Shown here: positions 32,697 to 44,310 of the stretch, one piece after another
Position numbering within the stretch: the stretch's first letter is position 1
How the letters are laid out: each line of letters starts with the position of its first letter
From: an uncultured Gilliamella sp.
Lineage (GTDB): Bacteria; Pseudomonadota; Gammaproteobacteria; Enterobacterales; Orbaceae
DNA: 64,000 nucleotides
Reading direction: 5' to 3'
NCBI GenBank assembly: GCA_946481345.1
Contig: CAMLMY010000009.1
Coordinates: 1-64,000 of the forward strand
Position numbers and translations under genes: made by a program
The notes under the pieces: generated by a model
What the model was told of the DNA's origin: nothing
The model's database searches: none
Seen by the model: the letters and a program-made list of their open reading frames with translations, nothing else

Positions 32697-33131
32697 ATGC
32701 ATAATCTGCTAATTGAAAAAATTGAAACTTTATGCAAGAAGCGTGGTATTAAATTGACAACACAGCGTCGAACAGTGTTAGATATTATGCTGAAAGCAAA
32801 TAAAGCAATGAGTGCATATGATCTTTTAGATTTGCTTAAGGTCAGTGAACCACAAGCAAAGCCGCCAACAATTTATCGTGCGTTAGAATTTTTGCTTGAA
32901 CAAGGTTTTATCCATAAAGTTGAATCGTCGAATAGTTTTATTATTTGTCCACATTTTCATGATCCAGAGCATATTTCAATACTGTTTATTTGTGACAAGT
33001 GTCAACAGATCATTGAAAAACATTCTCAAGATATCGAAACACAACTTAAGCAATTAGCGCGACAAAGTGACTTTTTAATAAAACACAGTGTGCTTGAAAT
33101 ACATGGAATTTGTCAGCCATGTCAGCCTTAA
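32697..33131 (+). CDS. zur: Fur-family zinc uptake regulator Zur
   Basis: 144 aa; KLTTQRRTVLDIM...KPPTIYRALEFLLEQGFIHKVES..., CDKC and CQPC metal-binding cysteines. Confidence 0.85.
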   Translation: MHNLLIEKIETLCKKRGIKLTTQRRTVLDIMLKANKAMSAYDLLDLLKVSEPQAKPPTIYRALEFLLEQGFIHKVESSNSFIICPHFHDPEHISILFICDKCQQIIEKHSQDIETQLKQLARQSDFLIKHSVLEIHGICQPCQP

Positions 33132-33475
33132 TTATTACTCTTTGGTTAGTAAATCTATTTTGTGATACTGTCGGACAAATTGCCTTTAAATATGCTGCAA
33201 TAACTTCAAAACATCAACAAGGTTTACACTATTGGCAAAAATTGTTTGGTAATTTTTGGCTATGGTTAGGGTTTAGTACCTATTTTGTTGGCTTTATTTT
33301 TTGGCTGGCTTTTTTAAGTGAAGTTCCATTATCGCAAGGTATTCTATTAGGATCGTTTAATATCATCACAGTAATGGTTGCTGGGCGAATTTTATTCAAA
33401 GAACATCTAACAGCATTTCGTCTTATTGGTATATTTTTTATTACTTTCGGCGTGATATTAGTAGGACTTACCTAA
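33110..33475 (+). CDS. Small EamA/SMR-like 4-TM transporter subunit 1
   Basis: 121 aa; four hydrophobic segments; ends TFGVILVGLT; overlaps the zur 3' end. Confidence 0.72.
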   Translation: MSAMSALIITLWLVNLFCDTVGQIAFKYAAITSKHQQGLHYWQKLFGNFWLWLGFSTYFVGFIFWLAFLSEVPLSQGILLGSFNIITVMVAGRILFKEHLTAFRLIGIFFITFGVILVGLT

Positions 33476-33858
33476 TGAAAAAATTTTATATCATCGGTTT
33501 TATTTTATTGTTATTTTTTGATACATTTGGTCAAACTACTTTCAAATTAACCGCATTATCAGCTTTACCATTTGAAATTAGTTTCGATTGGTTAATCCGT
33601 ATTTTTAGTCATGGTTGGGCATATTTGGTCATCTTAGGCTATACAGGCGCATTTATGACTTGGATGGTTTTATTAAAAAAAGCGCCTGTAGGACCAGCGT
33701 TTGCTGCTTCACATCTACAAGTAGTGACCGTTATGCTAGTTTCAGTGATCGTGTTTAATGAACAAATAACATTAACTCGTTTGTTGGGTGGATTATGTAT
33801 TATTATTGGTATTGTATTTTTAGCTTTGGCTGAGCAAAAATTACAATGCAAAAAGTAG
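33475..33858 (+). CDS. Small EamA/SMR-like 4-TM transporter subunit 2
   Basis: 127 aa; tandem paralogue, TAATG overlap with subunit 1. Confidence 0.72.
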   Translation: MKKFYIIGFILLLFFDTFGQTTFKLTALSALPFEISFDWLIRIFSHGWAYLVILGYTGAFMTWMVLLKKAPVGPAFAASHLQVVTVMLVSVIVFNEQITLTRLLGGLCIIIGIVFLALAEQKLQCKK

Positions 33859-34607: not shown

Positions 34608-35012
34608 TTAAATCTGTTTATCTAAGTTTTTAAGCATTTCGATAATCGGTCTATTGGCATCAGGAAATTCGTCTGCATTAAGATCTTCTTGTGCAACCCA
34701 ACGGCTAGGTTGACCTTCTTTAGCAAATGGTACACCGTCCCATTCTTCAACAAGATAAGCATGAATGGTGATGTCACGATCATCATAACTATGTTTAAAA
34801 ACATTTAAAAATTGGGCTTGATGAATTTGGATATCAACTTCTTCCGCTATTTCACGTTGCAAGGTTTGAAATGGGGTCTCACCTACTTCAATCTTTCCAC
34901 CTGGGAATTCCCAAAAACCAGCAAGATGGGAGTCTTCACCGCGTTGGGTTATAAAGATTTGACAATCTTGTGAACGAATAATACCTACAGCAATTTCAGT
35001 ATGTTTTTTCAT
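34608..35012 (-). CDS. mutT: 8-oxo-dGTP diphosphatase MutT
   Basis: 134 aa; Nudix box GGKIEVGETPFQTLQREIAEEVDI; follows secA. Confidence 0.93.
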   Translation of the reverse strand: MKKHTEIAVGIIRSQDCQIFITQRGEDSHLAGFWEFPGGKIEVGETPFQTLQREIAEEVDIQIHQAQFLNVFKHSYDDRDITIHAYLVEEWDGVPFAKEGQPSRWVAQEDLNADEFPDANRPIIEMLKNLDKQI

Positions 35013-35129: not shown

Positions 35130-37862
35130 TTAGTGAACAGCACCATGACAATGTTTATATTTTTTACCTGAACCACAAGGACATGGGTCATTACGTCCCA
35201 CTTTAGCTTGGTTTCTTACTATTGGTTGTGATAAAGTTCCTGCTGATTGTTCTTTACTTTCACTGCCCATATTTGTTACCTCTTCATGGTTGGCTTGTTG
35301 TTTTGCCATTAATTTTTCCATTTCGGCTAGACGTTGACGTTCAGCTTCATCAACTTCTTCTTGAGAACGAATCTGAACGCGACTTAATATCCCTATTACA
35401 TCATATTTTAATGCTTCTAGCATACCAGCAAACATATTAAATGATTCACGTTTATATTCCTGTTTTGGATCTTTTTGTGCATAACCACGTAAATGAATAC
35501 CTTGACGTAAATAATCCATTGCTGCTAGATGTTCTTTCCATAAAGTATCAATTGTTTGTAACATAACGCTTTTTTCAAAATGTCTAAATGCTTCAGAACC
35601 AGCATTATTTTCTTTTGCGATATAGGTATCTTGGGCTATTTGTAAAATACGTTCACGTAATGTTTCTTCATGAAGATTTTGTTCTTCATCTAGCCATTTA
35701 GCAATAGGTAAATCTAAATCAAAATCGCTTTTAAGTGCTGTTTCAAGTCCTGCAACATCCCACATTTCTTCAATGGATTGTGGCGGAATATATTGATCAA
35801 TTAATGCATTAAAGACATCACTACGGATTGAATCAATCGTTTCTTTAATATCGGAGTTATCAAGTAATTCATTACGTTGACGATAAATAACTTTACGTTG
35901 ATCGTTTGCAACATCATCGTATTCGAGTAACTGTTTACGAATATCAAAGTTTCGGCTTTCAACTTTCTTTTGAGCATTAGCAATAGCTTTGGTTACCCAA
36001 GGATGCTCAATAGCTTCACCTTCTTTCATACCTAGTTTACGCATCATGTTACCCACACGATCGGAAGCAAAAATTCGCATTAATGGATCTTCCAGTGATA
36101 GGTAAAAGCGTGATGCCCCTGGGTCACCTTGACGACCGGCACGGCCACGAAGTTGGTTATCTATTCGACGTGATTCATGACGTTCAGTACCTAAAATATA
36201 AAGTCCTCCTAGCGCAATCACTTCTTCGTGTTTTGCTTGCCATGCTTGTTTGGCTTTTTCGATATCTTCAGGAGTAGGTGCTTCAAGTTTTGCTATATCG
36301 CTTTGCCAGTTACCACCAAGCATAATATCGGTACCACGACCAGCCATGTTTGTAGCAATGGTTACTGCACCTTTACTACCTGCTTGAGCGATTATTTCTG
36401 CTTCTTGAGCATGGAATTTTGCGTTAAGTACGTTATGCTTGATACCTGCTTTTTTAAATGCGGATGACACTAATTCAGATTTTTCAATTGAAGCTGTACC
36501 AACTAAAACAGGTTGTCCACGTTCTACACAAGCTTGTACATCAGCCACAATCGCATTGATCTTCTCTTTTTCTGTCATATAAACAAGATCAGGTTGATCT
36601 TTACGTATCATTGGACGATTGGTTGGGATAACAATAGTATCTAAACCATAAATCTGATTGAATTCAAATGCTTCGGTGTCAGCAGTCCCTGTCATGCCAG
36701 CTAATTTTTCGTACAAACGGAAATAGTTTTGGAAAGTAATTGATGCTAATGTTTGGTTTTCATTTTGGATTTTAACATGCTCTTTAGCTTCAACGGCTTG
36801 ATGCAAACCATCAGACCAACGTCGTCCATCCATTGTACGGCCAGTATGCTCATCAACAATAACAATTTCGTTATCTCTGACAATGTAATCCACATCTTTA
36901 TGGAATAGGTGATGAGCACGTAATGCTGCATTGACATGATGCATTAATACAATATTACTTGGCGCATAAAGTGATTCGTCACCTTTCATAATTCCATTTT
37001 TAATAAGCAACTCTTCAACTTTCACTAATCCACGTTCAGTCAAATTGGCTTGACGTGTTTTTTCATCGATAGAAAAGTCACCATCACCCTGAAATTGATC
37101 GGAGTCTTCTTTTTCTTGTTGAATTAGATATGGAATGATTTTATTAACACTAACATATCGGTCAGAACTATCTTCAGCTTGCCCCGAAATGATAAGAGGT
37201 GTTCTTGCCTCATCAATTAAAATTGAGTCAACTTCATCGACTAAAGCATAATGCAGAGGGCGTTGTACACGAGAATCTTTAGTAAATACCATATTATCGC
37301 GCAAGTAGTCAAAGCCATATTCATTATTGGTACCGTAAGTAATATCGGCATTGTAAGCTTCACGTTTCATTTGAGGTGGCATATGAGGTAGATTGATGCC
37401 AACCGATAATCCTAAAAATTCGAATAATGGGCGATTATTTTCAGCATCACGCTGTGCTAAGTAATCATTTACTGTCACAACATGTACGCCTTTACCGGTT
37501 AACGCATTTAAATAAGCAGGTAAGGTTGCGGTTAAAGTTTTACCTTCACCGGTACGCATTTCAGCAATACAACGTTCATTTAATACCATACCACCAATAA
37601 GTTGTACGTCAAAATGGCGCATACCAAACACACGCTTACTTGCCTCACGTACAACTGCAAAGGCTTCTTCTAAAATATCATCTAACTTAGCACCTTCAGC
37701 GATTTTTTGTTTAAATTCTTTGGTTTTATCTTTTAGCTGTTCATCGGTTAACGCTTCAATTTGCGGTTCAAGTGCATTAATTCTTTCAACGCGTTTACGC
37801 ATCATTTTTAATACGCGTTCATTTCGACTACCAAATACTTTGGTTAATAGATTTAATAACAT
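35130..37862 (-). CDS. secA: Preprotein translocase ATPase SecA
   Basis: 910 aa; [40 protein letters not shown]-terminal zinc motif [18 protein letters not shown]. Confidence 0.99.
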
Positions 37863-37878
37863 GATTTTTCTCTTGTTT

Positions 37879-37943
37879 TTTTTAATAGGAATAGTAAGGC
37901 TTCTGCCTTTATAAAAATTTAATTTAATTGAGCAGTAAGCTCA
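37879..37943 (-). promoter_or_regulatory. secM-secA intergenic leader with two small hairpins
   Basis: Minus strand contains TGAGC ttact GCTCA (partly 3' of the secM stop) and AAGGC agaa GCCTT upstream of the secA AAGAGA ribosome-binding region. Confidence 0.45.
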
Positions 37944-38288
37944 TTAAGCGGTAGTGTTAGGTCCAGCTCTTATGCCATTATTAGGTGATAATCGAATAAT
38001 TGGATTTGGACTAACATCACGGTAATTTAATGGTGTAGTTAACCTATAACATTGCCCTTTTTGCGCTAAGACTAATGTTTGTGATGTTGTTGTTATCGGA
38101 GCTTGATGATCTTGTACAATTCGGGTAATGGTAATAATACCAACTTGGGACGCTGATGATTGCGCAGGTAAAGCGTTTTCTTGATACAATCCAAACCCAG
38201 CAGCAATCACACCTAATAATAAGTGCGATAAAGCCGTGTTAATAATCAAGCGTTTGCTGATTTTTTGCCAATAATTAATTATGATCAT
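37944..38288 (-). CDS. secM: SecM-like secretion monitor / arrest peptide, divergent
   Basis: 114 aa directly upstream of secA; N-terminus ...WQKISKRLIINTALSHLLLGVIAAGFGL... resembles SecM (HLLLGMVAASLGL); C-terminus NPIIRLSPNNGIRAGPNTTA* keeps GIRAGP with four residues after the Pro, as in E. coli [10 protein letters not shown]. Confidence 0.88.
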   Translation of the reverse strand: MIIINYWQKISKRLIINTALSHLLLGVIAAGFGLYQENALPAQSSASQVGIITITRIVQDHQAPITTTSQTLVLAQKGQCYRLTTPLNYRDVSPNPIIRLSPNNGIRAGPNTTA

Positions 38289-38509: not shown

Positions 38510-39049
38510 TTATTCTAAACTTGCATGACGATGAGCCATATCATCATTACTATCTTTTTGGTTATTACTCATAGTAAGAATAACAGTATCAAAGATAATA
38601 AGTAACATCTGTTCGAAAAGGCTACCAAGTGGTTGTTGACTTACTTGTGATTGTGAATATTTAGTACCCGATTGTAACATAATGTCTGGTGATTGGATTT
38701 TGGCAAGAGTTGAATCAGGCGATGCACAGATAATAGCAAGATCAATACCTTGTTTGAGTGCTGATTTAGCCATTAAATTAACACTTTCAGTTTCACCTGA
38801 GGCTGATGCGACTATTAAAAGATCACCTTTTTGTACTGATGGTGTAGTTGTTTCACCAACTACAAAAGAGTTTAATCCAAGCTGCATCAGTCTCATTGCA
38901 AAAGCCTTTAACATAAGACCTGAACGTCCTGTACCATGGACAAAAATACGGTTATGCTGTTTTATTTTCTGGATTAAATTTGTGATGTTTTGGTCAGTTA
39001 ATGTTTGAACAGAATGATTTAGTTCATTAATAATTAGTTGTGATTGCAT
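38510..39049 (-). CDS. SIS-domain 6-phospho-3-hexuloisomerase-like protein
   Basis: 179 aa; HGTGRSGLMLKAFAMRLMQLG...ASASGETESVNLMAKSALKQGIDLAIICASPDSTLAK. Confidence 0.83.
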   Translation of the reverse strand: MQSQLIINELNHSVQTLTDQNITNLIQKIKQHNRIFVHGTGRSGLMLKAFAMRLMQLGLNSFVVGETTTPSVQKGDLLIVASASGETESVNLMAKSALKQGIDLAIICASPDSTLAKIQSPDIMLQSGTKYSQSQVSQQPLGSLFEQMLLIIFDTVILTMSNNQKDSNDDMAHRHASLE

Positions 39050-39063
39050 TTTGCTTGCTCCTA

Positions 39064-39819
39064 TTAAGCAATAGTTCTACCGCCATCAAGTAAAATAGTT
39101 TGTCCTTGAATATAAGAATTATCTTTATCTGCTAAGAATAAAGTTAAGTTAGCAACATCTTCGACAGTACCAAGACGTCTAACCGGTATTTTTTCCAACA
39201 CGGCATCTAGACTTTCTTGAGTCGGGTAATTCACACGCATCATTTTTCCTGAGTCAATTAATCTTGGAGCAATTGAATTTACATTTACACCCTTTGGACC
39301 TAGTTCTTTGGCTAATCCTCGCATTAATCCTTCGCCTCCTGCTTTAGATGCAGGGTAAGACACACCACCACCAGTGCCACTTAAGGCTGAACCTGAACTG
39401 ATATAAACAATTGAACCTTTATTGGTTAAAAAATCGTTATAGAAAGGTTTAACGGTATTAAATAGACCACTTAAATTGATATCTAATGTTTTTTGCCATT
39501 CTTCATAAGAGATATCATTAACTTTGTTAGCAAATGCAACACCAGCATTTAATACTAAAATATCAATACGTCCAAATTGTTTGAATGTTTCTTCTCGTAC
39601 TTTTTCCATATCTTTCGCGTTTGATACATCAGCTTGAATAAATATTGACTGTTGCTGATAATCGCGAGTTATTTGTTCTGCCGTTTCAGTCCCTAATTCA
39701 TAATTAAAATCGACAATAACTGTATTAGCTCCAGCTTTTGCAAATTTTTCAGCAATTGCTTTACCAATTCCATGTGCTGCACCAGTTACAAGTGCAACTT
39801 TTCCAGTGAAATTACTCAT
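39064..39819 (-). CDS. Short-chain dehydrogenase/reductase
   Basis: 251 aa; TGAAHGIG cofactor motif, LNAGVA, SYPASK catalytic motif. Confidence 0.9.
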   Translation of the reverse strand: MSNFTGKVALVTGAAHGIGKAIAEKFAKAGANTVIVDFNYELGTETAEQITRDYQQQSIFIQADVSNAKDMEKVREETFKQFGRIDILVLNAGVAFANKVNDISYEEWQKTLDINLSGLFNTVKPFYNDFLTNKGSIVYISSGSALSGTGGGVSYPASKAGGEGLMRGLAKELGPKGVNVNSIAPRLIDSGKMMRVNYPTQESLDAVLEKIPVRRLGTVEDVANLTLFLADKDNSYIQGQTILLDGGRTIA

Positions 39820-39838
39820 TTTTATCTCCTTATCTATA

Positions 39839-40495
39839 TTATGCGGCTAATGAAACTCTTAACTTAGTAATGTTGTCTGTGATATTGCCATTGAATAAAT
39901 ATCCCCCAGAGACAAAAATATTTGCTCCAGCATCGCGACAATACTTAATGGTTTTGTCATCAATACTTCCGTCGACTTCGATATCAATATTGTAATTACT
40001 GACCAAAGATCTAACTCGTTTTATCTTATCCACTACGGACATTAAAAAATGTTGTCCTCCCTCACCAGGATTAACTGTCATAAGTAAAACCATATCAATA
40101 TCATTTAAAAGATATTTTATATTTTCTTCGGAAGTGCCGGGATTAAGCACTATTCCAGCTTTTATTCCCGCCTTACGAATTTTCTGCAAACAACTTATGT
40201 GGCGATTAGTCGCTTCTTGATGAATTGTGATAATGTCTGCTCCGGCTGCAATGATACTGTCTAAATGCACTTCAGGTTTTTGCACCATTAAATGGACATC
40301 AAGTGGTAAATGTGTTAATTTTTTTAGAGCTTTAATGTGATCAGCCCCAAAGGCTATGCGTTCAACAAAATGCCCATCCATTACATCTACATGTAATAGT
40401 TCGACCTCATTTTTTTCTAGTTCTGTCAATTGTTGCTTTAACATACCTAAATTAGCAGCAAAAACAGATGGTGAGAGTTTAAATTTGTTTGCCAT
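39839..40495 (-). CDS. Ribulose-phosphate 3-epimerase family (Rpe/AlsE/SgcE-like)
   Basis: 218 aa; LSPSVFAANLGMLKQQL, LHVDVMDGHFVERIAFG, VNPGEGGQHF, EVDGSI. Confidence 0.88.
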   Translation of the reverse strand: MANKFKLSPSVFAANLGMLKQQLTELEKNEVELLHVDVMDGHFVERIAFGADHIKALKKLTHLPLDVHLMVQKPEVHLDSIIAAGADIITIHQEATNRHISCLQKIRKAGIKAGIVLNPGTSEENIKYLLNDIDMVLLMTVNPGEGGQHFLMSVVDKIKRVRSLVSNYNIDIEVDGSIDDKTIKYCRDAGANIFVSGGYLFNGNITDNITKLRVSLAA

Positions 40496-40524
40496 GTATT
40501 ATTTCCTTATTCATAAAAATATAT

Positions 40525-41814
40525 TTAAGAAAAAACTTCTATTAATCTATGTATTAATGAAACCAAAATGCTTCCTGGATTCCAGCCAAAATGACCACCA
40601 TCGGTTACTGTGGCATTTGGATTTGTGGCGAAGATATCTAAGCCTGCATACTTCATCATCGCTGTTGCTTCTGGAGCAAAATAGTTAGCGCTAAAGCAGA
40701 CAAAATACATGCAGATTATTGATAGTAAGGTGCTACGAAATACATTTCCCTTACTGGCTAAGACAATCATAGGTGTCAAATAACAAACTTGAGCGAGTAA
40801 ACCTAAAGGAAAAAACGTCATATTAGGAATAAGGAAAGCAAATCCGATAACAAATGGTATAGTGATTGCGGTTACGGTAATACAAGCAGGATCGCCAAGT
40901 CCTAAGGCAATGTCCATGCCTATATAAAACTTACCATCACTACCACTAACATGTTTTTTGATAAATGTTGTTGCTGCATTACCTATTGGTGTTACGCCCT
41001 CCATCATAATTCCTACCATTCTTGGAATAAGTATCATGACTGCTGCAAATCCCATACAAATGGTGAGAATTGTTGGAATATTTTGTTGAGTTAATATGCC
41101 TAAAAATGCACCAACAAAAATACCAATAAAGGTAGGATCTCCAAAAATACCTAATTTACTTTCAATTTTATCCATATTTATTTCAAGATTTTTAATAAAA
41201 GGAATAAAATCAATTAGTTTATTTAAAAATACGGCAATTGGATAAATTAAAGCAACAAAAGCTAAAGTAGTGCATGTGGTTCCCTCTAAACCAAAATATT
41301 CCTCCCATTTAGGAGCAACCCATTTAGCACAAAATAATGTAATAACAGATAAGCCGATTGTGACTAAAACACCAATGAATATATTGTTAAATAGAGCAAT
41401 GGCTAAAGCTCCCGGAATCATGAAGTGAATGAAGTTCCATACATCAACATTAATTACATTAACAACTTTTATTTTGATTAATAAAATATTTAATAAAATG
41501 ATCAACGGAATACACAATACCACTGCTGGGATAGACCAAGCGGCACCACCGATTGCAGCAAATCCTACATCAATCGTTGTAAAACCTGACCCAAGCTTTT
41601 CATAATAGGCGATAACTGGGTTTATTGTTGCCATTAGTAGGTTAAGCACTAGTACTAAACCTTGAAAACCAATTCCAACGAGTAAACCTGATTTAATTGC
41701 TGAACCAATTCGCATACGGAAAAACAAACCTAGTAGCATGATAACTACGGGTAGCAATACTACTGCACCTAGTTTTGAAACGGTTTCAAAAAAAGTTTGT
41801 AATATATCCATCAT
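40525..41814 (-). CDS. PTS galactitol-type IIC component (set 1)
   Basis: 429 aa; GatC family (GGAAWSIPAVVLCIPLIILLNILLIK...VNVDVWNFIHFMIPGALA; MMEGVTPIGNAA). Confidence 0.88.
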   Translation of the reverse strand: MMDILQTFFETVSKLGAVVLLPVVIMLLGLFFRMRIGSAIKSGLLVGIGFQGLVLVLNLLMATINPVIAYYEKLGSGFTTIDVGFAAIGGAAWSIPAVVLCIPLIILLNILLIKIKVVNVINVDVWNFIHFMIPGALAIALFNNIFIGVLVTIGLSVITLFCAKWVAPKWEEYFGLEGTTCTTLAFVALIYPIAVFLNKLIDFIPFIKNLEINMDKIESKLGIFGDPTFIGIFVGAFLGILTQQNIPTILTICMGFAAVMILIPRMVGIMMEGVTPIGNAATTFIKKHVSGSDGKFYIGMDIALGLGDPACITVTAITIPFVIGFAFLIPNMTFFPLGLLAQVCYLTPMIVLASKGNVFRSTLLSIICMYFVCFSANYFAPEATAMMKYAGLDIFATNPNATVTDGGHFGWNPGSILVSLIHRLIEVFS

Positions 41815-41825
41815 AGTTATGCTCC

Positions 41826-42143
41826 TTATGCGTTAGATAAAATCTCTTGGCATAGTTGCAATAGTTTGTCTTTTACTAAATCAACGTTAACACCAGAAAT
41901 AAGACCAAAAACACTCATATGTGGAATGGTTAATGCTTTTTTATAATTAGCGGTTGTGAGTACTAAATCAAAATTTTGCTGTTTACCCTCCAATTCTCCT
42001 AAAGTACATTTACTAATTTTTGCTGTTATACCAGCACTTTCTAATATATTTTTTACTGCATCAACAGCAACTGTTGACGTTGCTACACCACTTCCACAGG
42101 CAACAATGATATTTAATTGTTTGGACATAATTTTTCCTTTCAT
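41826..42143 (-). CDS. PTS galactitol-type IIB component (set 1)
   Basis: 105 aa ORF; P-loop cysteine IIVACGSGVATSTVA. Confidence 0.88.
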   Translation of the reverse strand: MKGKIMSKQLNIIVACGSGVATSTVAVDAVKNILESAGITAKISKCTLGELEGKQQNFDLVLTTANYKKALTIPHMSVFGLISGVNVDLVKDKLLQLCQEILSNA

Positions 42144-42201
42144 CTATTTTATTCATCAGTAATTTTTAAATTAGTGATGAATAAAAATTTAGTATAATTA
42201 T

Positions 42202-42651
42202 CTATTTGTTTATATGCTGATTGATTAATTGTTCAACTTGTAAGCAGCTAAGGTTTTGACAGTTGTCAACGAAAATTTCATCTTGAAATAAAGCAAACAA
42301 CCGCTGGAGTATCGTCAAGTGTTGATTACTGGTTGATAAAGCTAGGTTGAATATTAATTGACAACTGACTTTTAAATCAGAATCTTCCATTTGTCCAAAC
42401 TCAACACCTTTAGAGGAACGAACTAAACTAATAGCATCAGACTTTACCAATTGATAATTTGCATGAGGTATAGCTATCCCTATTCCGTTACTCATAAGTA
42501 ATCCTGTAGGATAATCTTTTTCACGATCAATACATGCAGTAATGTAATCAGCTTGGATATAATCTTTTTCTAACAAATAAGAACCTGATGCGTTAATTAC
42601 TTCTTGATATATTTTGATACTGTTATCTAAATCATGAACTAAAATATGCAT
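42202..42651 (-). CDS. PTS IIA component (GatA/fructose-mannitol type)
   Basis: 149 aa; phosphohistidine motif GIAIPHANYQ. Confidence 0.88.
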   Translation of the reverse strand: MHILVHDLDNSIKIYQEVINASGSYLLEKDYIQADYITACIDREKDYPTGLLMSNGIGIAIPHANYQLVKSDAISLVRSSKGVEFGQMEDSDLKVSCQLIFNLALSTSNQHLTILQRLFALFQDEIFVDNCQNLSCLQVEQLINQHINK

Positions 42652-42661
42652 AAACTACCTC

Positions 42662-42946
42662 TTATTTAGTAAGTTCTTTTTTTACTGCATCAAAAATTGC
42701 TTCTTCGCCAATACCGGTAAGCAAACCAGCACCAACAATTACTTTAGTTGTAATATCAGGATTATCGATTTTGGTTGATGACACGACTAAATCGTAGCCA
42801 TTAAACGTATCAGCTGAACATGCCATGAGTGAGGATTTATCCACTTGTGCAACAATACTTTGTTCTTTCAGATAATCTTGTAAAATTGAAACCATAATTG
42901 ATGATGAAGCAATTCCATTTCCACAAACCACTAAAACTTTTTTCAT
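42662..42946 (-). CDS. PTS galactitol-type IIB component (set 2)
   Basis: 94 aa; KVLVVCGNGIASSSIMV. Confidence 0.88.
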   Translation of the reverse strand: MKKVLVVCGNGIASSSIMVSILQDYLKEQSIVAQVDKSSLMACSADTFNGYDLVVSSTKIDNPDITTKVIVGAGLLTGIGEEAIFDAVKKELTK

Positions 42947-44310
42947 TTTGAGACCTCGCTATTAATGTTTGAATTTCTTTGTTTTTTCTTCAATAAATAA
43001 CCTACTGATAGTAAAATCAGACCAATTAACGCATAACCTAGTATTCCTATGTGGCTAGTTGCGGCAAACAGTCCTGTAAATGGATTTGCAGATGGATTCA
43101 ATGAGGTATACATCACAGAAGCATCAGGATTGGTTCCAAATTCTTGAAATACTTCATTTGTTGCAGGAGTCATCCACGAAGCGATATATAAACCACCGCC
43201 AAATAAAAAAATTGAAGTGATCCATGTACGAATGATATTGCCTTTAAATACTGGTACCATACAGGCAATAAAGAATACAAATTGAGATAAGTCACCTAAT
43301 GGCATTACCTTATTACCGGGTAAAATTACGGCTAAGATGACAATGACTGGTATAAGCAATAATGCGGGTGCAATTACTGATGGGTTACCAACAATTAACG
43401 CAGTATCCATACCAACAGTAATATCACGATTTGGGAAGCGTTTAACTAGTTTTTTTCGAACTACATTTGATAACGGTACTAATCCTTCCATCATTATGGA
43501 AGTCATCCTTGGTAATAACAACATAACAGCTGCTAAATACATTCCCAATTGTAAGCTAGAAATGATAGTGTGATAGGGGCTTTGCCATGAATAACCACAA
43601 AAACCAAGTAAAACTCCAATAATAAAACCAACAATGGTTGGATCACCAAGTACACCAAAGCGTTTTTGAATTGTTTCTGCTGTAATACTCAGATTTTTAA
43701 AACCAGGAATACGGTCATAAACCCAATTGAAAGGGTAAGCAAAAATGAGATAAGTATTTGCTACTGGGTGAGAAATGGATACACCTTCGGGTAAATTATA
43801 AAACTGTTCATTATTTTTAGCGCCAATATCGGCCGCTATTAATGCCCAAATATGGAAGAGTGCTGCTGTTAATACTCCATATAGAAAACTTCCAGAGTAA
43901 ACACCAACAATAGCCCCCATTGATGCATTTTGATGTAAATTGAACACATCAACATTAACGCAATCTGTTATTTTTAAAATAAGGAGTAGTACATTAACAA
44001 ATACACATAATGGAATAATAATTGGTCCCATACTAGAACCGAATCCCATTACGGCAGTAGCAGCGCCTCCGACATCAATTGCACTAAGTGAAGATCCTGT
44101 ACTTTCAGCAAGTCCAGTAACTGCAGGAGCCATCTTGTCTAGCATAAATTTAATTGTCATACTTAATGCTATAAAGCCAATACCAACTTTCATTGCAGAA
44201 GATATACATTCTGAAATAGGTCGACCAAGACCAGCCATGAGTATTAAAAAAATAATAGGGATAAAGATAAAATTACCTAAATCATTAATAAATTGCGTGA
44301 TTAGTTCCAT
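42943..44310 (-). CDS. PTS galactitol-type IIC component (set 2)
   Basis: 455 aa; GatC family (VNVDVFNLHQNASMGAIVG; MMEGLVPLSNVVRKK); 4-bp overlap with the IIB gene. Confidence 0.88.
   Translation of the reverse strand: MELITQFINDLGNFIFIPIIFLILMAGLGRPISECISSAMKVGIGFIALSMTIKFMLDKMAPAVTGLAESTGSSLSAIDVGGAATAVMGFGSSMGPIIIPLCVFVNVLLLILKITDCVNVDVFNLHQNASMGAIVGVYSGSFLYGVLTAALFHIWALIAADIGAKNNEQFYNLPEGVSISHPVANTYLIFAYPFNWVYDRIPGFKNLSITAETIQKRFGVLGDPTIVGFIIGVLLGFCGYSWQSPYHTIISSLQLGMYLAAVMLLLPRMTSIMMEGLVPLSNVVRKKLVKRFPNRDITVGMDTALIVGNPSVIAPALLLIPVIVILAVILPGNKVMPLGDLSQFVFFIACMVPVFKGNIIRTWITSIFLFGGGLYIASWMTPATNEVFQEFGTNPDASVMYTSLNPSANPFTGLFAATSHIGILGYALIGLILLSVGYLLKKKQRNSNINSEVSK

Follow-up and report, generated by a model that had tools for sequence, protein, structure and literature searches.

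The secM-secA Locus

The window analyzed in the present study, a stretch of 64,000 nucleotides, belongs to Gilliamella, a bee-gut bacterium of the family Orbaceae, and carries a 114-aa ORF 81 nt before the secA start codon (ATG 37862) on the same strand (Table 1). Regarding its C-terminus, which reads ...PNPIIRLSPNNGIRAGPNTTA before the stop codon, an alignment to the E. coli SecM motif anchored on P166 (the basis of all residue numbers below) placed P, R, and L at the positions of F150, W155, and I156, with S157, the GIRAGP core, and a four-residue tail being retained. The assignment to Gilliamella follows from named contigs with a shared SecM (L032 and L033). The ORF, its C-terminus, and these substitutions had been described in exactly the same terms in an earlier sequence-only reading, and the secM-secA-mutT order claimed there was confirmed by NCBIfam equivalog matches.

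Table 1. Positions of the features of the secM-secA-mutT region within the window
Feature	Position	Strand	Basis or remark
secM	37944..38288	-	114-aa ORF before secA; ATG 38288, stop 37944-37946
Sec signal hydrophobic core, residues 14-34, LIINTALSHLLLGVIAAGFGL	38187..38249	-	sequence, hydrophobicity, NCBIfam SecM match, pN/pS 0.31
Arrest region PNPIIRLSPNNGIRAGP, residues 94-110 (E. coli 150-166)	37959..38009	-	sequence alignment
RLSP, residues 99-102 (E. coli 155-158)	37983..37994	-	Orbaceae-specific, in place of WISQ; pN/pS 0.18
GIRAGP core	37959..37976	-	IRAGP in 43/43 Orbaceae; positions 159-166 pN/pS 0.07
Four-codon tail NTTA	37947..37958	-	length 4 in 31/34; sequence unconstrained, pN/pS 1.01
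Stem-loop TGAGC-TTACT-GCTCA	37929..37943	-	directly past the secM stop; comparable stems there in several relatives, not all
Stem-loop AAGGC-AGAA-GCCTT	37896..37909	-	intergenic, secM-secA; conserved across the genus
secA Shine-Dalgarno AAGAG	37870..37874	-	sequence; nearly all relatives have AAGAG
secA, 910 aa, presumed regulated gene	35130..37862	-	NCBIfam SecA equivalog, E=0
mutT	34608..35012	-	NCBIfam MutT equivalog, E=7.4e-54, over cut-off

On its upstream side, secM adjoins hxlB (6-phospho-3-hexuloisomerase, over the cut-off), whereas the corresponding gene in E. coli is lpxC; the conserved order thus covers only secM-secA-mutT. The hxlB gene lies within a segment at 38510-44310 (-), in which a sequence reading also indicated an SDR oxidoreductase, a ribulose-phosphate 3-epimerase-like protein, and PTS components. 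At 33110-33858 (+), two adjoining small membrane proteins resembled EamA/SMR-type transporters, again by reading.

The SecM-like HLLLGxxAAxxGL signal segment noted in the sequence-only reading is present at the N-terminus, and the NCBIfam SecM model (NF002799) matched residues 3-76 with E=3.6e-7 and 30 bits, which is below the curated cut-off of 100 bits, an annotation threshold set for the long enterobacterial SecM rather than a biological criterion. Pfam and PDB sequence searches with the ORF returned no match. Since only 29 of the order's 395 sampled genomes passed this cut-off, and short Pasteurellaceae SecM proteins among the matches listed also scored under it, it marks the long SecM class and not SecM as such. 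The 114-aa ORF is real, and it is a SecM homologue.

Conservation and Selection in Orbaceae

A homologous ORF was found before secA in all 43 Orbaceae genomes with a secA match, which represent five genus codes; the sample comprised 44 genomes, the last of which (59% complete) had no secA match in its assembly. These SecM proteins are 110-120 aa in length. Most members of the genus have a secM-secA gap of 72-88 nt; in two deep-branching members (L114 and L120, from genomes G029 and G030), which do not have R155, the gaps are 135 and 223 nt.

C-terminal IRAGP was retained in 43/43, including I162, R163, and P166, the three residues that Yap and Bernstein, as cited in PMC10951299, reported to be invariant in all SecM. 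This fixation is notable because RAGP is generally avoided in proteomes (PMC12992588). Among 28 aligned sequences of the genus, pN/pS was lowest at positions 159-166 (0.07), followed by RLSP at 155-158 (0.18), the signal (0.25 and 0.31), the spacer (0.52), and the tail (1.01), with pS between 0.35 and 0.77; these ratios were simply pooled over sequence pairs with no correction for common ancestry, and the contrast between them is large. The core is under strong purifying selection and the ORF is not decaying, which is the opposite of the outcome, namely, the loss of GIRAGP in relatives during decay of the ORF, that the sequence-only reading had named as evidence against its view. The decrease in pN/pS from the spacer to the core corresponds to an arrest-peptide pattern, with the signal and C-terminus constrained and the spacer freer.

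Short and Long SecM Classes

Long and short classes of SecM have been published, the latter assigned to Pasteurellales by Fujiwara 2024 (PMC10987492). For comparison, we used 48 enterobacterial and 22 Pasteurellaceae SecM proteins. The former are 167-216 aa as read, their lengths being taken from the first possible start, with W155 in 44/47, and the latter are 99-112 aa, with W155 in 0/22. The median distance from the signal core to the arrest site was 81 in Orbaceae, 73 in Pasteurellaceae, and 132 in enterobacteria; Fujiwara 2024 gives a median of 71 for short SecM by another measure (PMC10987492). Considering the short spacer between the signal and arrest site, the Orbaceae proteins fall within the short subclass, and the window protein departs from the long, E. 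coli-type subclass in P, R, and L for F150, W155, and I156 and in its length of 114 rather than about 170 aa. It is accordingly assigned to the already described short class, with a tunnel-contact segment of its own.

The SecM identity, the short form, the conserved gene order, and the retained GIRAGP core proposed in the sequence-only reading are borne out. Its description as divergent holds against E. coli only, the sole comparison made there; the F, W, and I residues are not general across SecM homologues, and a short SecM without W155 is nothing unusual.

Origin of the RL[ST]P Segment

Within the genus, I154 and R155 were each present in 29/34 sequences, L156 in 31/34, and P158 in 30/34. 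In the other Orbaceae, R155 occurred in 6/9; within the family, Gly155 was present in two sequences and W155 in one (L119). Variants of the segment in the family included W155 (L119), GY (L123 and L124), RL[ST]P (most), and QITS (L112 and L113).

In a partial SecA tree, Orbaceae grouped with enterobacteria (SH-aLRT 92) and not with Pasteurellaceae, and the W155 carrier L119 branched first in Orbaceae (support of 99 for Orbaceae and 82 for the remaining Orbaceae); this tree was obtained by a quick search with moderate supports, and its inner branch order is open. The early branching of L119 suggests that W155 was probably lost, and the RL[ST]P module gained, inside Orbaceae. The reduced recognition set proposed earlier is only half correct: positions 155-158 have not simply been lost but now hold RL[ST]P, which is conserved in the lineage and constrained by purifying selection.

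The Ribosome Tunnel

Changes in the tunnel that might compensate for the loss of W155 were considered and ruled out by a comparison spanning the uL22 tip (VDEGP[ST]MKRIMPRAKGRADR), the uL4 loop, and the 23S A749-A753 stretch around A751, all of which matched E. coli. The comparison was made in relatives, as the assembly of the window lacks these genes, and the E. coli query stretches serve as a lead rather than as a database copy. Two Orbaceae genomes matched the 23S query at 100%. The 23S stretch of G029 was slightly off the otherwise uniform Orbaceae sequence by reading, and G030 stood at the same 97% identity. By this comparison, it is the peptide that has changed and not the checked parts of the tunnel. 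With these elements E. coli-like, the ribosome should be permissive, and E. coli ribosomes should be a fair test bed.

The RNA Region between secM and secA

In E. coli, a stem-loop hides the secA Shine-Dalgarno sequence until it is opened by the stalled ribosome (PMC10987492). Two stem-loops were located between secM and secA in the window, and the secA Shine-Dalgarno sequence is in neither. The AAGGY...RCCTT hairpin had an RNAalifold energy of -14.9 against a column-shuffled mean of -5.0, with none of 100 shuffles being as low; its fifth pair varies (C-G or T-A), and it has no terminator T-run. In the folding model, a stalled ribosome made the secA start easier to open; the gain was 0.5 kcal/mol for the window, against a genus mean of 0.7 and a value of 1.4 for the 48 enterobacterial loci, and the value for the window was equaled or exceeded in 5/25 shuffles. 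In the subset with shuffle controls, the easing was 1.03 in the genus (0.18 when shuffled) versus 2.26 in enterobacteria (0.22 when shuffled); the shuffles are random and their exact counts vary slightly on rerun. A Shine-Dalgarno-sequestering helix sought across relatives was not general, and an effect of 2-3 kcal/mol was found only in some (such as L017, L019, L020, L023, and L112). A promoter scan yielded promoter-like sites no more numerous than in shuffled sequence. No clear helix hiding the Shine-Dalgarno sequence was thus found.

Proposed Arrest Mechanism and Alternatives

We consider it highly probable, by analogy with stalling in E. coli SecM, that Orbaceae SecM is a short secretion-monitor arrest peptide controlling secA. 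In the stall register taken from E. coli SecM (PMC10951299), the nascent chain would stop with peptidyl-Gly109 (E. coli G165) in the P site and the tRNA of Pro110 (P166) in the A site. In the 2.0 A structure of E. coli SecM, a 23S pocket accommodates R163, and the P166 nitrogen is engaged by the carbonyl of A164 (PMC10951299); because the core is unchanged, the same block is expected here, with Arg163 held by the 23S pocket and the Ala164 carbonyl blocking the proline nitrogen. The engagement of the N-terminal signal by SecA/SecYEG would pull the chain and release the stall, and impaired export would allow the stall to persist, with more translation of secA. The four-codon tail, in which length but not sequence is kept, would fit a stalled-ribosome footprint reaching just to the stop codon.

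Residues 152-158 of E. coli SecM form a short helix, the unfolding of which was proposed to set the release force (PMC10951299). A proline at 158, the helix end, removes one backbone hydrogen bond, and the helix is hence predicted to be shorter or missing, with a changed release force. The Orbaceae-specific [IV]RL[ST]PxN module probably tunes stall strength and release force. A more extended proposal is only tentative and may well prove wrong, namely, that Orbaceae swapped the F150...W155-I156 short-helix module for [IV]RL[ST]PxN with its helix-disturbing P158 while the tunnel elements compared remained E. coli-like, so that SecM is released at a different force and its RNA output may not involve hiding the secA Shine-Dalgarno sequence.

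An alternative is that the protein is a SecM descendant without efficient arrest, a translated leader only coupling the translation of secM to that of secA. The absence of a clear RNA switch would suit such a leader, as would the loss of F150 and W155: in E. coli SecM, alanine at either position reduces or abolishes stalling and W155Y leaves about 20% (PMC6340945), and so E. coli ribosomes might respond only weakly to the core within the Gilliamella sequence. Efficient arrest is also lacking in most of the other RAPP-like sequences that have been tested (PMC10987492), and RAGP alone is therefore insufficient for arrest. However, a mere leader would not retain these exact residues, and IRAGP is invariant across the family despite much synonymous change. 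Moreover, Pasteurellaceae SecM proteins also do not have F150 or W155, and the member from M. succiniciproducens is listed among the motifs with demonstrated stalling (PMC10987492). We therefore judge a leader without arrest to be improbable.

In most Orbaceae SecM proteins, the IRxxP pattern occurs twice at a spacing of eight residues; in the window, the two occurrences are IRLSP at 37983-37997 (-) and IRAGP at 37959-37973 (-). This repetition, together with the frequencies of I154, R155, and P158 and the occurrence of IRGSP as the natural core of one SecM, raises the idea of a stalling peptide with a second arrest element at 155-158, in which IRLSP is a degenerate copy and two pause sites exist. 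Leu in the place of A164 is not expected to allow arrest, only small residues being tolerated in ApdA/ApdP (PMC12992588), lineages such as L112/L113 carry QITSHN at the segment, and a tunnel contact or helix cap accounts for the same conservation; a second pause site is thus very improbable, even more so than the loss of arrest. Chance RAGP in a spurious ORF, which the short length, the absence of a Pfam match, and the sub-threshold NCBIfam score might suggest, is refuted because 43 genomes from five genus codes keep the reading frame and the C-terminus and share the N-terminal homology.

Significance and Comparison with Known Systems

The arrest-peptide reading extends the known range of SecM to a gut-symbiont family and shows that such short members are missed by curated SecM models. 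It also points to a natural mutant series (W155/GY/RL[ST]P/QITS) in hosts whose ribosomes resemble that of E. coli in the tunnel elements compared, by which a model of SecM as an arrest module plus a regulator module becomes testable with evolved, not designed, sequences. Among the papers searched, none joined Gilliamella or Orbaceae with SecM, and the main text of the survey (PMC10987492) names neither Gilliamella nor Orbales, which its supplementary tables may list.

The Pasteurellaceae short SecM is similar in having about 100-112 aa, a signal, a short spacer, IRAGP (or IRGSP) near the stop, a position upstream of secA, and no W155. It differs in Pro161 (21/22), mostly Ala or Pro at 160, and variable residues at 155-159, whereas Orbaceae have RL[ST]PxNG and usually a four-residue tail. 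The long SecM of E. coli and other enterobacteria shares the HLLLGxxAAxxG N-terminus, the GIRAGP core, the four-residue tail, and the secM-secA-mutT order, but has 167-216 aa and W155 in place of 114 aa and R155, and the Shine-Dalgarno-hiding helix described for E. coli was not clearly found in Gilliamella. RAPP-type peptides (ApdA, ApdP, ApcA, and the RQH family) share with SecM the R-A-(G/P)-P chemistry at the peptidyl transferase center (PMC10951299, PMC12992588), although the rest of the protein is not homologous and several of them, in other phyla, precede secDF or yidC. Against this background, the short SecM class is known, and what appears to be new is an Orbaceae member with a lineage-specific regulator segment.
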